A DNA stretch of 42,514 nucleotides from an uncultured bacterium (GTDB lineage Bacteria; Verrucomicrobiota; Kiritimatiellia; RFP12; UBA1067), in contig CACWIW010000031.1 of the NCBI GenBank assembly GCA_902761035.1, positions 1-42,514 on the forward strand. Direction: 5' to 3'. Position 1 is the stretch's first letter. Every line of letters starts with the position of its first letter. Below the pieces are notes generated by a model. The model was not told where the DNA came from and did not search any database. It worked only from the letters and a program-made list of their open reading frames with translations. Made by a program: the position numbers and the translations under genes. Positions 10,758 to 19,387 of this stretch are shown here, one piece after another.

Positions 10758-13107
10758 CGCGCCCCTTAAACCGCACCACGGGGCGAGGGCCGGCGTTGGG
10801 ACCTGGGCGCAGTTCGACCTTCACCGGCTGGCCGTCCTTCCATTCGCAGTCCACCATCCAGCCGCCACGCGCGCAGAGGCCCTTGAACGAACCCTGTTTC
10901 GCCCACTCCTGCGGCAGGGCCGGCAGGAGGTCGATTCCGCCGCGATGCGACTGCATGAGCATTTCCGCGATACCGGCGACGGCACCGAGGTTGGCGTCGA
11001 TCTGGAACGCCAGACCACGGTCCTTCGAGACTTGGAAGAGGTTGTTGTAGAGGCTACCCAAGTCTGCGTACGAGGAGAACCTGCGCATGCTTCCATCTGC
11101 GTTCACCGCAACTGTCGTCAACCTCTTCAGCGGGGCGTACGCACGCTTTGCCTCCCCGCAACGCGCCCAGAGGCACACGCGCCATGCGAGCGACCATTGG
11201 CCGCCGAGCCCGCGCGCGGCAAGGGACACCTTCGCCGCCTCGAAGAGCGTCGGCGTCTCGGGCGTGACCTGGTCCGACGGATAAAGCGCGTAGAGATGGC
11301 TGGTGTGTCCGAAATGGTCGTTCGGATCGTCGATGTCCTGCCGCCATTCCTGAAGCTGTCCCCAACGTCCGATGTGGGTCGGCTCCACGTCGGCGGCGAC
11401 GCGGCGCAGCTTTTCCGCGTATGCCTTGTCGCCACCCAGGATCTCCGTCGCCTCCGCGACGGCCGAGAGCATGTCGCGTGCGAGCTGGTGGTCGATGGCG
11501 TTGCTGGGCATCACGGCCCGTTTGTACGGCTTCGCGATGTTTTCAGGCGACATCGAGGGGCACACGGTCAGCTTTCCCGTATTCGGATCGCGCGTCATGT
11601 ACGAGACGAGGAAGTCCGCCGCACCCTTCAGCGTCGGGTAGTGCCGGGCAAGGACGTCGCGGTCGCGCGTGTAGAGCCAGTGGTACCAGATGTGCATCGC
11701 GAGCCACGTGCCGCCCGTCGGCCACATCCCGTAGCGCGGGGACGACGTAGGGGCCACCCATCGCCAGAGGTCGGTGTTGTGGTGCGTCGTCCAGCCGTCC
11801 GCCTCATAGACGTCGTGCGCGTATTCGCGGCCCGTCACGGCAATCTCGTCGCACAGCCGCCAAAGCGGCTCCGCGAGGTCGCCGAGGCCCGTCACCTCGG
11901 CGGGCCAGTAGTTCATCTGCGTGTTGATGTTGATCGTGTAGTTGGATCGCCATGCGGGGCGCATGTCCTTGTTCCAGATGCCCTGCAGGTTCGCCGCCTG
12001 GGTGCCGGGCTGCGAGGACGAGATGAGCAGGTAGCGTCCGTAGCGGAAGAGGAGCGCGTAGAGGTAGAGGTCATCGCCCTTGCCGTCGTTCGCGGCAATG
12101 CGCTCGTCGGTGGGCATCGACGGATGCGCGTCGGGCCCGAGCGAGAACGTGCAGCGGTCGGCCTGCGCGCGGTAGAACGCGACATGCGCCGCACGCGCCT
12201 TCTCGTAGGGCGAGCCGAGCGCCTTCCCGAGCGCGGCGCGGCATTTCGCCGTCGGGTCGCCGGTGAGGTCCCGGAAGTTTCGGTAGTTGGTGGCGATGGC
12301 CATGTAGATCGTCGCCTCGTCCGCGTCCGCGACGACGATCTTGTCGCCCGCTGCCTTCGCCGTGCCGCCCTTCACGCGCACGACCGCGCGCCCTTCGTAT
12401 TTCAACGCGCCGCCCGCCGTCACGCCGCGCACGACGAGCGCGCCGTCCTCCACCGCGCACGACGCCGGACGCGGGGACTCGACGGACACATCGAACGCGA
12501 TAGCACCGGGCCGGTCTGCCGCGGCGCGGTAGATCACCACGTCGTCCGTGAAACTCGCAAACGTCTCGCGCGTGAAGCGGACACCACCGCGCGCGAATTC
12601 CGCGCGCGCCACGGCGTCGTCGAGCGAAAGCGACCGGCGAAAGTCCTTCGTTTCGCCTTCTGGCAGGACATGACGAATCCTGAGGGTGCCGAACGGCTGG
12701 TAGGATGACGTCTGCGGCAGCTTGCCCGGCAAGGCCGCGTTGCCCTTCACGATCTCGCCCGCGAAAAGCAGCTCGCGGCTCCTCTTCAGCATTGCGGGCG
12801 TGATGGGCTCGTTGCCACGCCCGAACGGACGCCCTGTCCAGATGGTGTCTTCGTTCAGCACGAGGCAGTCGCTCTCCACGCCGCCGAACGCCATCGCGCC
12901 GAGGCGGCCGTTCCCAAGCGGCATCGCCTCGAACCAGTTCCGGGCCGGCTGGCGGTAGGACAGCGTGAACGGCTCCGCCGCGCCGGGCGAAACCGAGCTC
13001 GCTTGCGCATCCGCGCCCAACGCGGACAACCCGCCAAGCGAGAGGGCGAAAGCACCTCCCGCGCTCAAAAATGTCCGACGATCAAGCAATCCAAGTATTC
13101 TTCCCAT
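10738..13107 (-). CDS. Tat-exported GH95 alpha-L-fucosidase
   Basis: A 789-residue enzyme predicted to hydrolyse terminal alpha-1,2-L-fucose (inverting). Start ATG 13107 has GTGGAGAAG just upstream; a longer TTG-initiated frame has no support. A twin-arginine signal (LLDRRTFLSAGGAFALSLGG) directs folded export. Family blocks in order: RNWFEAMPLGNGRLGAM and NEDTIWTGRP (N-terminal beta domain), NINTQMNYWPAEVTGL (the Asn pair used with the catalytic base), PSMSPEN (catalytic Glu region) and FQIDANLGAVAGIAEMLMQS (Asp region). All key residues known for GH95 appear intact. It lies 22 nt downstream of an ATPase gene that seems to be an insertion into the GH127-GH95 operon. The last codons fall inside a foldback element. 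GH95 also includes some galactosidases, so sugar specificity is inferred. Confidence 0.9.
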   Translation of the reverse strand: MGRILGLLDRRTFLSAGGAFALSLGGLSALGADAQASSVSPGAAEPFTLSYRQPARNWFEAMPLGNGRLGAMAFGGVESDCLVLNEDTIWTGRPFGRGNEPITPAMLKRSRELLFAGEIVKGNAALPGKLPQTSSYQPFGTLRIRHVLPEGETKDFRRSLSLDDAVARAEFARGGVRFTRETFASFTDDVVIYRAAADRPGAIAFDVSVESPRPASCAVEDGALVVRGVTAGGALKYEGRAVVRVKGGTAKAAGDKIVVADADEATIYMAIATNYRNFRDLTGDPTAKCRAALGKALGSPYEKARAAHVAFYRAQADRCTFSLGPDAHPSMPTDERIAANDGKGDDLYLYALLFRYGRYLLISSSQPGTQAANLQGIWNKDMRPAWRSNYTININTQMNYWPAEVTGLGDLAEPLWRLCDEIAVTGREYAHDVYEADGWTTHHNTDLWRWVAPTSSPRYGMWPTGGTWLAMHIWYHWLYTRDRDVLARHYPTLKGAADFLVSYMTRDPNTGKLTVCPSMSPENIAKPYKRAVMPSNAIDHQLARDMLSAVAEATEILGGDKAYAEKLRRVAADVEPTHIGRWGQLQEWRQDIDDPNDHFGHTSHLYALYPSDQVTPETPTLFEAAKVSLAARGLGGQWSLAWRVCLWARCGEAKRAYAPLKRLTTVAVNADGSMRRFSSYADLGSLYNNLFQVSKDRGLAFQIDANLGAVAGIAEMLMQSHRGGIDLLPALPQEWAKQGSFKGLCARGGWMVDCEWKDGQPVKVELRPGPNAGPRPVVRFKGRALHGRI

Positions 13108-13129
13108 TTTGCTTCTCCACGTTTCCTTT

Positions 13130-14557
13130 TTATTCAAACAGTCGCTCTACCGGAATTGCAAAATCGAGCAGATGATCTGTGCGAATGGACGAAGCAAGAC
13201 GGCCGTCATACACGAGCACGGTGCGGACGGACATACCCGAACGGAAACCCACGGCATGGGCTTTGTCGTTTATCTCGGAAACCACGTCCAAACCGATGCT
13301 CTCACGGCGTTTTATTTCCACCAGATACGCCGTTGTCCGTGTCTGGAGCAGGAGATCGACCTGAACGCCGCCAAGGTCCGCAGATTTCGCGCGGCGATAC
13401 GGCGCGGCGGAAAGCAGCGACGCTCCGTCTATTCCGAGCATTGGAAGCAGTGCTCTGTAATTTGAGATCACGAGGTTCTCGAACTGAAGCCCCTTCATCA
13501 CGTCCCACCCCTTCAGCTCCGCAAGCGATCCGCACTGGAAAAGCTCCGCTTCAACCTCCTTGGCGTGCGGCTCGATGTGGTGTAAGTAGAATCGCGCGTA
13601 ATTGTCCTTGAGCCTATACCGCACGATGCGTCCCACCCTTCCCGTACAGGGGTTGACTCCGCCATCCTTCGCGACGAACCCGGCAAGTTCCAATTCGGAG
13701 AGATGTTCCACCAGGTGCCCGTTCCGTTCAATGCCGAGCGTCTCCGCGATTTCGGCAGCGGATTTCGCCCCGTATGCGATCGCCTTGAGCAACGCCTTTC
13801 GCATCTGCGACTTCTTCCCGAATATCTGGCTGAATATCTGGTTGAAGTCGCGGAAGAGAATACCCTCCCGCGTGAAACACAGCTGTCGAATGTTCTCGTC
13901 TGACGAAACGCCGGGATTGATCTCTTCAAGATACTTCGGGACGCCGCCGGTCACGGAAAGGACATCCAGAACCTCGCCTATGGAAACGCGCTCCGCCGCC
14001 GTTCCCCAAAACGCCCTGCAGACTTGAAGCGGAAGTTCGTCTATGACAAAATCAAGCGAGTCGCGCCCGGCAAAGCCAGTCCCGTTCAAGATGTTCTCCG
14101 CAATCCAGCTTGAAACGCTGCCGCAAAGAACAAGGACGAAGTTGTTTCTGGTCTTGAAGAACCTGTCCCATGCGATCTTGAGCGTTCCGGCGAAGGAAAC
14201 GTCATAGCCGCCCATCCATGAAATCTCATCAAGCAACACGACAAGACGTCCATCCCTTGGAAGCGAATTGCCGAGCATCTGGAAAGCCTGCAGCCAACTC
14301 GACACGGCCACGTCAGGCGCGTTCGTCTGCATGGACAGCTGTTCCATGAAACTACGCAACTGCACCTTGTTATTGACGCCTTCGCCCGGAGCTTGTCCCT
14401 CAATTGAAATGAAATGGTCGGAAGAACGCCTTGCGAACTCCGCCACAAGCGTCGATTTGCCGATTCGTCGCCTTCCACGAACCGTCACAAGGGAAGGCGT
14501 TGACTTCTGCCAAAGCCCATCCAGCCTATCTAAAATTGATTTTCTTCCTACGAACAT
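13130..14557 (-). CDS. ATPase_2 / DUF234 family protein (P-loop ATPase, winged helix, PD-(D/E)XK-like C-domain)
   Basis: 475 residues, cytoplasmic. The N-terminus MFVGRKSILDRL leads into a STAND-like P-loop ATPase of the archaeal ATPase family: Walker A in VRGRRRIGKSTLVAEF, Walker B in LVVLLDEISWM, sensor region VLVLCGSVSSWI. A winged-helix segment follows (KSAAEIAETLGIERNGHLVEHLSELELAGFVAKD). The DUF234-type C-domain shows VDLLLQTRTTAYLVEIKRR, a D-...-E-x-K restriction-endonuclease-like core. Function is unknown for the family; DNA binding or cleavage is inferred. Promoter TTGATT-17-TATCAT at 14586-14614 overlaps a palindromic repeat array, suggesting autoregulation. Gene and array are bracketed by a 75-bp duplication of the GH95 leader, so the gene is probably a later arrival in this glycan operon. 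Confidence 0.85.
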   Translation of the reverse strand: MFVGRKSILDRLDGLWQKSTPSLVTVRGRRRIGKSTLVAEFARRSSDHFISIEGQAPGEGVNNKVQLRSFMEQLSMQTNAPDVAVSSWLQAFQMLGNSLPRDGRLVVLLDEISWMGGYDVSFAGTLKIAWDRFFKTRNNFVLVLCGSVSSWIAENILNGTGFAGRDSLDFVIDELPLQVCRAFWGTAAERVSIGEVLDVLSVTGGVPKYLEEINPGVSSDENIRQLCFTREGILFRDFNQIFSQIFGKKSQMRKALLKAIAYGAKSAAEIAETLGIERNGHLVEHLSELELAGFVAKDGGVNPCTGRVGRIVRYRLKDNYARFYLHHIEPHAKEVEAELFQCGSLAELKGWDVMKGLQFENLVISNYRALLPMLGIDGASLLSAAPYRRAKSADLGGVQVDLLLQTRTTAYLVEIKRRESIGLDVVSEINDKAHAVGFRSGMSVRTVLVYDGRLASSIRTDHLLDFAIPVERLFE

Positions 14558-14585
14558 CGCCTATGATCCTCAATCAGCGGGCACC

Positions 14586-14614
14586 ATGATATCACAATTT
14601 GGGCACGAAATCAA
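14586..14614 (-). promoter_or_regulatory. Promoter of the DUF234 ATPase gene
   Basis: -35 TTGATT (14614-14609), 17-nt spacer, -10 TATCAT with TG extension (14591-14586). The -35 overlaps the first half-site of the inverted repeat at 14601-14611, an arrangement expected for repression. Confidence 0.65.
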
Positions 14615-14692
14615 CCCCACAGCATATTTCGTGCCCGAAAATGCAATGTGGCTTTCGGGCACGAAATATCCCTATGGGTCATTTTCGTGCCC
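14601..14692. promoter_or_regulatory. Two inverted-repeat pairs with exact 56-bp period (operator-like array)
   Basis: Half-sites gggcacgaaat at 14601-14611 and 14657-14667; inverted half-sites atttcgtgccc at 14626-14636 and ttttcgtgccc at 14682-14692. Both pairs have 14-nt unrelated spacers (caaccccacagcat, atccctatgggtca). Start-to-start spacings are 25, 31 and 25 nt. Confidence 0.8.
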
Positions 14693-14779
14693 GTTTGGTG
14701 AATTGCCAAGCGAGAGGGCGAAAGCTCCTCCCGCGCTCAAAAATGTCCGCCGATCAAGCGATCCAAGTATTCTTTCCAT
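14672..14779 (-). pseudogene. Truncated duplicate of the GH95 Tat leader
   Basis: From ATG 14779 (TAGGAGTG upstream) the frame reads MERILGSLDRRTFLSAGGAF and continues ALSLG, then unrelated residues to a TAG at 14674-14672. The first 75 nt differ at only four positions from the start of the GH95 gene (13107-13033). After codon 25 it runs straight into the inverted-repeat array. It looks like the original 5' end of the GH95 (or a sister) gene, separated from its body by the ATPase insertion; the functional GH95 gene has its own second copy. Confidence 0.75.
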
Positions 14780-14805
14780 TAGCCATCACTCCTAAACGCA
14801 GTTTT

Positions 14806-18765: not shown

Positions 18766-19155
18766 TTACGACATAACCAAAACGCCGTATTGGGGGAAAC
18801 GATGATCTGTCGTAACCACAGGAATATTCTCTGTCAACGCTGTCGCGATTATGAATCGGTCTGCCGGATCATGGTGGATCTGCGGAAGTTCCGTGGCCCT
18901 GAACATCACCTCTTCCGTCAATGGCGCAAGATTGACACCGTACTTTGCCATAAAACGGGAAAGAAGCCTCCGCGGTGGCATCGGCAAGACGATTCCTCCG
19001 TCATGCCACTTGAGCGAAATCTCCCATTCAGTAATCGGGCTGATGCACAAATCCTCCGCCTCTCGCATGGCGTCAAGGGTGTCTCTGGAAAAACGTCCCA
19101 ATTCTCCGTTGGCAAGCCATAATACCGCGCATGTATCAAGGAGTAGCCGGCGCAT
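18766..19155 (-). CDS. VapC-like PIN-domain toxin
   Basis: 129 residues, probable Mg2+-dependent ribonuclease. The start ATG 19155 is chosen for its GGGAGG 6 nt upstream and because the protein then opens MRRLLLDTCAVLWLANGE, the usual first PIN strand; the open frame extends 11 codons further inside the antitoxin gene. Acidic PIN residues seen are D in LLLDTC, E in ITEWEISLK, D in HHDPADRFIIATA and D in VTTDHRF. The four-residue set is complete, so it is probably active. It overlaps the end of the Phd/YefM-type gene by 20 nt, the standard antitoxin-toxin order, and is expected to be inactivated by it. Confidence 0.88.
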   Translation of the reverse strand: MRRLLLDTCAVLWLANGELGRFSRDTLDAMREAEDLCISPITEWEISLKWHDGGIVLPMPPRRLLSRFMAKYGVNLAPLTEEVMFRATELPQIHHDPADRFIIATALTENIPVVTTDHRFPQYGVLVMS

Positions 19156-19387
19156 TGCATGCCTCCCAATCTCCCGATCCGTCCGCAAACAAGTCGCAAT
19201 TGATCTTTATCTTCCCGGCGAGGCCGGGGATGGGCGAGAGCGATCGCGCCTTGCGCTCAATGGGCACCACGCGCGCGACAGGACGTCCGTAGCGCGTGAT
19301 GGTGATTGTCAGCATGTTGCGCTCAACCTCCGCCAGCACGCCAGAAAAGTTCGCTTTAGCTTCGTTGACATTTAAAACTGTAGGCAT
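19136..19387 (-). CDS. Phd/YefM-family antitoxin
   Basis: 83 residues. MPTVLNVNEAKANFSGVLAEVE is the DNA-binding N-terminus typical of Phd/YefM antitoxins, followed by the strand TITITRYGRPVARVVPIE. The C-terminal 35 residues should wrap the VapC toxin. The start has AAGGAG 9 nt upstream, with a clear promoter at 19426-19454. It partners the overlapping PIN gene. Autorepression is expected from the family but no obvious palindrome is visible in the promoter. Confidence 0.9.
   Translation of the reverse strand: MPTVLNVNEAKANFSGVLAEVERNMLTITITRYGRPVARVVPIERKARSLSPIPGLAGKIKINCDLFADGSGDWEACNAPATP

Follow-up and report, generated by a model that had tools for sequence, protein, structure and literature searches.

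Putative operator arrays with private half-sites at the promoters of mobile single-gene ATPase units in an uncultured Kiritimatiellia bacterium and its relatives

The array and the ATPase gene beside it

The stretch of DNA analysed here, called the window, comprises positions 1 to 42,514 of contig CACWIW010000031.1 (assembly GCA_902761035.1) of an uncultured bacterium of the Kiritimatiellia, and the element in question is an array of inverted repeats lying over the predicted promoter of an ATPase gene, both being part of an inserted unit (Table 1). The array consists of two inverted pairs of the half-site GGGCACGAAAT, both with a 14-nt spacer and repeated with a period of exactly 56 bp; this arrangement of four half-sites, described in the original prediction, was confirmed in the window sequence, the fourth copy carrying one mismatch. 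The predicted -35 TTGATT has three bases in common with the nearest half-site. The exact 11-mer half-site occurs five times in the 6.14-Mb genome, three of them at the window array, while the paired pattern was found at two sites, both at the same array, the reversed control giving none. Single half-site matches with up to two mismatches, counted in the window only, were not above chance (16 against 14.8 expected); the evidence for the array consists in pairing, spacing and conservation. A chance origin of such arrays was ruled out by the uniqueness of the paired pattern, by the upstream score statistics given below and by the reversed-pattern controls, which gave 0 in 144 genomes.

The gene product is a predicted STAND-type ATPase with a winged helix and a PD-(D/E)XK nuclease motif. 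Its Pfam matches above cut-off were ATPase_2 and HTH_20; the DUF234 label of the original prediction was not upheld, since neither the window protein nor any of six homologs matched the corresponding Pfam model at E <= 0.01. No match to the window protein was obtained in NCBIfam at E <= 0.01, nor in a sequence search of the PDB. The PADLOC profile PDC-S27 matched residues 2-417 with an E value of 9.8e-71 (profile positions 4-412 of 474), and a paralog of a second clade, at locus L031, with an E value of 2e-194. The predicted structure has a mean predicted local distance difference test score of 92.3 and places residues 280-291 in a helix; by structure comparison the protein has the ATPase and winged-helix fold of the STAND group (SSO1545/PABY2304), with matches mostly covering residues 1-353. 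The Walker A and B residues (G28, R29, R30, G33, K34; D110, E111) are present in 151 of 151 homologs, as are E360 and D401 of the nuclease motif, with E414 in 150 and K416 in 149; ATPase and nuclease motifs are nearly invariant. Among the best 80 database relatives, those with a name are mostly from Kiritimatiellae, Lentisphaerae and Verrucomicrobia, many of them from ruminants, and a few are titled Fibrobacter, Acidobacteria or Krumholzibacteriia. Five relatives (L277-L281), 26-42% identical, lie on contigs filed as viral.

Table 1. Positions of the features in the window
Feature	Position	Strand	Basis or remark
475-aa protein: STAND-type ATPase, winged helix, PD-(D/E)XK motif; PADLOC PDC-S27 profile	13130..14557	-	open reading frame, profiles, model
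Winged-helix (HTH_20) match, codons 253-296	13670..13801	-	Pfam; model helices 267-274 and 280-291
Codons 278-282, helix residues co-varying with half-site bases (278 and 281 most)	13712..13726	-	co-variation
Nuclease motif E360, Q399, D401, E414, K416 (codons 360-416)	13310..13480	-	conservation in 151 homologs; strands in model
Half-site 1, GGGCACGAAAT, exact	14601..14611	+	promoter-proximal palindrome, sequence
Half-site 2, GGGCACGAAAT, exact	14626..14636	-	promoter-proximal palindrome, sequence
Half-site 3, GGGCACGAAAT, exact	14657..14667	+	distal palindrome, sequence
Half-site 4, one mismatch to GGGCACGAAAT	14682..14692	-	distal palindrome, sequence
Fifth half-site, degenerate, GGGCACC	14579..14585	+	just downstream of -10; same in ortholog L033
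Predicted -35 TTGATT	14609..14614	- (ATPase strand)	sequence and simple promoter caller
Predicted -10 TATCAT	14586..14591	-	17 nt from -35
Inserted unit of window lineage	13121..14704	-	left end AATTCAC (12 bp outside array); right end at stop codon +9
76-nt direct repeat, left copy	14705..14780	-	5' end of GH95 gene; starts at left end of unit
76-nt direct repeat, right copy, 95% identical	13033..13108	-	5' end of GH95 gene; single in empty site L172

Common geometry and private half-sites

Homologs were taken from 144 genomes of the order, the window genome among them, with matches at E <= 1e-30 in 54. Loci given for these were examined together with 100 further stretches, leaving out some near contig ends and the tail of the homolog list; 151 of 159 loci were usable, eight being short, cut or without a start. 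The array score is the best inverted repeat within -210..-30 upstream of the gene. Of the 151 upstream regions 135 scored at least 9, as did 10 of 453 dinucleotide shuffles; the control stretches gave 4/151 (coding), 9/145 (far upstream) and 19/150 (downstream, where some may be terminators). The second clade and other members from the phylum reached at least 8 in 32 of 38 rows, i.e. in 26 of 32 distinct new loci, six rows repeating loci, with a baseline of 43 in 453 shuffles at this threshold.

In the genome of the window itself 47 matches to the protein were counted, fragments included. The 23 full-length genes with an upstream region are the window gene and 22 paralogs at 45-51% identity, and a second clade is found at 27-31%; the upstream score is at least 9 in 20 and at least 8 in 22 of these 23 genes. 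Nearly every paralog has its own inverted-repeat array at the promoter, differing in sequence from the others. The original prediction had proposed to look for its palindrome upstream of related genes: inverted repeats are indeed present at most of them, and the change of sequence from nearly each paralog to the next had not been foreseen.

The half-site register was found by expectation-maximisation on 142 loci, nine of the 151 having no usable dyad, and 131 loci were retained after removal of 11 with a doubtful register. The distance between the dyad and half-site position 1 is constant in 124 of 142 loci, and position 4 is C in both arms in 134, the other positions being variable. Adjacent dyads are 26-28 bp apart in 121 of 199 cases; as successive half-sites point in opposite directions, a full palindrome recurs roughly every 54-56 bp. 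The 131 loci contain 66 different 9-mer half-sites; matches to a locus's own half-site (11-mer, at most one mismatch) number 359 in 30 kb of upstream DNA, 3 in coding DNA and 5 in 77 kb downstream. Among 21 paralogs of the window genome 20 different 9-mers were found, one being shared by the pair L019/L020 (92% DNA identity), which is also the only exact cross-match; near-matches with one mismatch occur in six further combinations. Array geometry is common to the homologs and half-site sequence private to most paralogs.

Inverted repeats near a gene start could also act as RNA, in attenuator or terminator hairpins. This is hardly credible here, given that two to four half-site copies are present in 117 of 131 upstream regions and dyads alternate with the spacing given above; moreover, in at least 80 of 129 loci the palindromes lie upstream of the predicted -35 and thus outside the predicted transcript.

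Pairs of GGGCACGAAAT are retained, in most cases twice, by six orthologs of the window gene (66-98% identity), three of which belong to another genus or family; L035 has mismatches, and spacers and surroundings differ. The kept half-sites and differing spacers had been read as the mark of protein binding, and the recurrence of the pattern in these orthologs favours that reading. A palindrome of the form GGGCACGAAA was found 24 times in the 144 genomes, distributed over 16 loci in 15 of them, against none for the reversed control; nine loci lead into an ATPase gene, two of these being cut by a contig end, and three into a truncated or internally deleted one. A second motif, TGTCACATTA, was found at ten loci, nine beside a listed ATPase homolog gene and one beside a remnant (reversed control, 0 in 144 genomes).

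Truncated or internally deleted unit copies that still hold the array were seen at L355, L354, L356, L353 and L290. In L355 roughly the first 86 nt of the gene are fused to the last 88 nt plus some 20 nt; this copy retains both ends, as a member of a family resembling miniature inverted-repeat transposable elements would, but its junction is single in the 144 genomes, and it was classed as a decayed copy like the other four.

Some further repeats were noticed near the arrays. Tandem CATTCGGTCATATTT-like units stand just before the array of L018, and many short GTTGCCAATG / CATTGGCAAC repeats surround the units of L055, L089 and L006, like a repetitive extragenic element.

Co-variation with the winged helix and predicted control

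The relation between half-site and protein was analysed on 91 representatives below 85% identity, 40 of the 131 loci having been dropped as near-duplicates. A partial Mantel test of half-site differences against 15-column protein segments, corrected for whole-protein distance, peaked in four overlapping segments from 268 to 291 (correlation 0.34-0.37; maximum of 300 permutations over all segments, 0.185), which in the model cover helix 267-274, the turn and the start of helix 280-291. By mutual information, residue 281 was best for site positions 1-3 (z 15.2) and residue 278 for positions 5-7 (z 15.3) and, more weakly, 8-11 (z 9.0). His281 goes with GGG in 34 of 42 loci; Lys278 goes with C at position 6 in 20 of 20 and Pro278 with C at position 7 in 11 of 11, and none of eight loci with Asn278 has C at position 6. 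In a held-out set of 20 proteins, each below 90% identity to all those used, the palindrome was in register in 17, a count to be read with a palindrome choice that favoured C at position 4; His281 occurred with GGG in 7 of 9 and Lys278 with C6 in 2 of 2. A partial residue-base code, comprising His281-GGG and Lys278-C6, thus seems almost readable from these alignments. The suggestion that the ATPase itself could be the binder is strengthened by the co-variation peak at residues 268-288, which points to its own winged helix.

Ordinary operators are often read by other proteins, and a separate host regulator, rather than the ATPase, could bind each array. We consider this very unlikely: some 20 different regulators per genome would be needed, keeping pace with the units, the co-variation peak falls on the recognition helix of the ATPase itself, and orthologs in other genera and in another family keep the same site.

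Several observations weigh against a reading in which each protein recognizes its own array. Eight of the 151 upstream regions score below 8; in the held-out set an in-register palindrome is missing from three of 20 loci, and GGG from two of the nine with His281. In the Mantel test segment 76-90 (0.196) also lies slightly above the permutation maximum, and in a comparison by single columns the best ones (237, 351, 310) fall outside the helix; many columns are raised in mutual information for positions 5-7 (residue 166, z 11.8; median 2.4). When the half-site is predicted from a partner locus, the rest of the protein performs better than the helix both with close relatives allowed (1.92 versus 2.27 mismatches of 11) and with partners within distance 0.35 left out (3.26 versus 3.64), the helix being the better predictor only when partners within 0.45 are left out (4.20 versus 4.87 mismatches of 11). 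Shared ancestry explains part of the co-variation signal and is not fully removed. Finally, 4 of the 16 GGGCACGAAA loci lead into no clear ATPase gene. Two of these are clear array remnants, matching unit arrays at 92.5% over 107 nt in G017 and at 96% over 84 nt in G074; the one in G099 has only weak unit traces, and at L359 (G129:C190) no DNA trace of the gene of the unit was found within the surrounding 6 kb. Palindromes standing without such genes, which the original prediction had named as a refuting case, thus occur in part, two of the four being remnants.

The placement of the arrays relative to the promoter was estimated with a simple caller, which misplaced some sites (e.g. L014). By this estimate 80 of 129 loci have the outer edge of the palindrome 6-10 bp ahead of the predicted -35, and in the clade of the window (7 loci) it lies 13 bp past the start of the -35, i.e. 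two helical turns nearer, the remaining loci being scattered. With an assumed transcription start on the predicted promoters, the dyads would fall near -61 in most loci and near -41 in the clade of the window. Positions -61 and -41 are the classical positions of activators. Array geometry on predicted promoters allows either sign of regulation: the dyad positions fit activation or a face-specific repression, and the overlap with the -35 in the clade of the window would equally fit repression and, in the window itself, favour it. In four loci of the second clade (L284, L285, L288, L289) an apparent third half-site was noticed by eye after the palindrome, near the -35 or between -35 and -10; it seems that such a site would suit autorepression.

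Taken together, we think it probable that the four half-sites are an operator-like array over the predicted promoter of a mobile unit, whose protein is predicted to bind them through residues around 278-282 and would likely control its own gene. On this proposal the winged-helix residues around 278-282 of each unit's protein would read its own array. Subunits of the STAND-type ATPase would occupy alternating half-sites along the same DNA, and their assembly there, and hence transcription, could depend on the ATP state. Since a cell holds 20 or more copies, each would need a site invisible to the rest, and site and recognition helix would therefore diverge together, as in phage immunity groups. 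Judging from its candidate-defence family PDC-S27, the nuclease would most likely act on foreign DNA after the protein has been switched on.

Unit ends, movement and known systems

Shared flanks were compared in 24 locus pairs with at least 90% DNA identity. Eight of them share only the DNA from 106-179 nt before the start codon to -16..+13 nt of the stop: L003/L033 (98%), L019/L020 (same genome, 92%), L008/L095, L126/L128, L057/L096, L021/L148, L013/L137 and L065/L072. L012/L130 (87%) behaves like these, and the shared DNA of L091/L092 extends further left (-334). In the remaining 15 pairs more flank is shared on one side or both; most of these look like the same place in two genomes, L055/L089 (-629 to +73) being a doubtful case. 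The left end AATTCAC, 12 bp before the array, is identical in four contexts (L003, L033, L356/L357 and L358), while in seven pairs at different places the right end is found 1-13 nt past the stop codon, with no common sequence. Empty sites in relatives define a unit of 1693 bp for L011, with a 2-nt overlap in two genomes and a less clean one in a third, this insertion being at the start of a gene that we take to be hemW-like from a motif; of 1620 bp for L020, with 1 nt overlap; and of 1594 bp for L003, with 78 nt duplicated. At L017 and L025 the nearest relative has 13 and 7 nt replaced, and the empty sites of L009 and L013 are less clean. Since the DNA common to near-identical copies at different places is limited to array, promoter and gene, and empty sites exist in relatives, the 1.6-kb unit with its single gene is, as far as DNA comparison can tell, mobile, being present at unrelated places in related genomes.

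Terminal inverted repeats at both ends, as in a classical transposon or insertion sequence, were not found, the array being at the left end only and the right ends having no common sequence. Nor was there a constant target-site duplication, its length in different insertions being 78, 2 or 1 nt and others having lost target bases, or an own transposase, the ATPase being the only long sense-strand open reading frame between the unit ends (overlapping mechanical reading frames were not pursued). A toxin-antitoxin module was also discarded, as there is no second gene and the shared DNA stops at the right ends described above.

The unit often stops a short way ahead of the start codon of the following co-directional gene, as seen in the right flanks of L003, L011, L021 and L025. 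Next genes were co-directional versus not in 98 to 46 cases downstream (7 of 151 uncounted) and 68 to 60 upstream; because open reading frame calling was crude and genes are commonly co-directional, no bias to insertion before such genes is claimed.

The array might instead be mainly a recombination end, as the original prediction had also envisaged: the protein would bind it and move the unit with its nuclease, promoter control being secondary. In most of the copies compared, the array is indeed no more than about 50 bp from the left end, the window-lineage end AATTCAC recurs unchanged in its four contexts, units of G000 are absent from the same place in relatives, and in the deletion derivative L355 both the array and the 3' end of the gene are preserved. 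We regard this reading as unlikely, however, since the right end has neither array nor shared sequence (five own-half-site matches in 77 kb downstream), the alteration at the target differs between insertions (duplication of 78 nt, overlap of 2 or 1 nt, replacement of 7 to about 80 nt), L355 occurs only once in the 144 genomes, and the position of the array is tied to the promoter, as seen in the 80 of 129 loci above. A wider proposal is put forward with considerable doubt, namely that the units may form a new class of self-moving single-gene elements in which the private array would serve both as operator and as moving end, the pairing of helix and array would define immunity groups of 20 or more mutually invisible copies, and the winged helix would carry a readable DNA code.

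Returning to a self-controlling unit, its parts are of known kinds. The archaeal ATPases SSO1545 and PABY2304 (2fna, 2qen) resemble the window protein up to near model residue 327, the nuclease part being an addition of the latter, and we know of no operator array for them. MalT-type STAND activators likewise are STAND ATPases binding arrays of short sites at promoters; in contrast to MalT, which has one shared site at sugar genes, most paralogs here have a separate site at the promoter of their own gene. A private operator next to the gene is also read by the protein in phage immunity repressors and plasmid iteron/initiator pairs, and several specificities of these can coexist in one cell; unlike these, the likely reader here is an ATPase with a nuclease motif, the unit has one gene and there are about 20 site sequences in one genome. 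An array working as a replication origin, read by an Orc1/Cdc6-like initiator beside its own repeats, the unit being or having been a replicon, is highly improbable in our judgement.

By its profile match over residues 2-417 the protein of the unit belongs to a candidate defence family, PDC-S27, described as an ATPase domain fused to a member of the PD-(D/E)XK superfamily (PMC12988326). The passages of PMC12988326 cited here state that most PDCs of the core set await experimental validation and do not mention promoter arrays, private sites or single-gene insertion. A passage of PMC13356809 places PDC-S27 among the more abundant systems in rumen genomes, with 2865 in the set of metagenome-assembled genomes. 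In the open-licence literature nothing was found on how PDC-S27 genes are switched on and no description of private promoter arrays for such ATPases, nor was the combination with some 20 site sequences in one genome and a partly readable code.

With a private operator per copy, each protein would come with its own reporter, offering a direct handle on the switching of PDC-S27. The units can be seen as a natural experiment in protein-DNA recognition, with one scaffold, 66 half-site 9-mers and a few residues varying with the bases, and they could yield a winged-helix code and a large kit of non-crossing switches; if the proposal is true, they would represent a natural set of dozens of separate lock-and-key gene switches from one protein design. 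The single-gene insertions also raise the question of what moves the units.

Elsewhere in the window, at 18766-19387 (-), a PIN-domain protein is encoded with a Phd/YefM antitoxin before it, a type II toxin-antitoxin pair according to Pfam.
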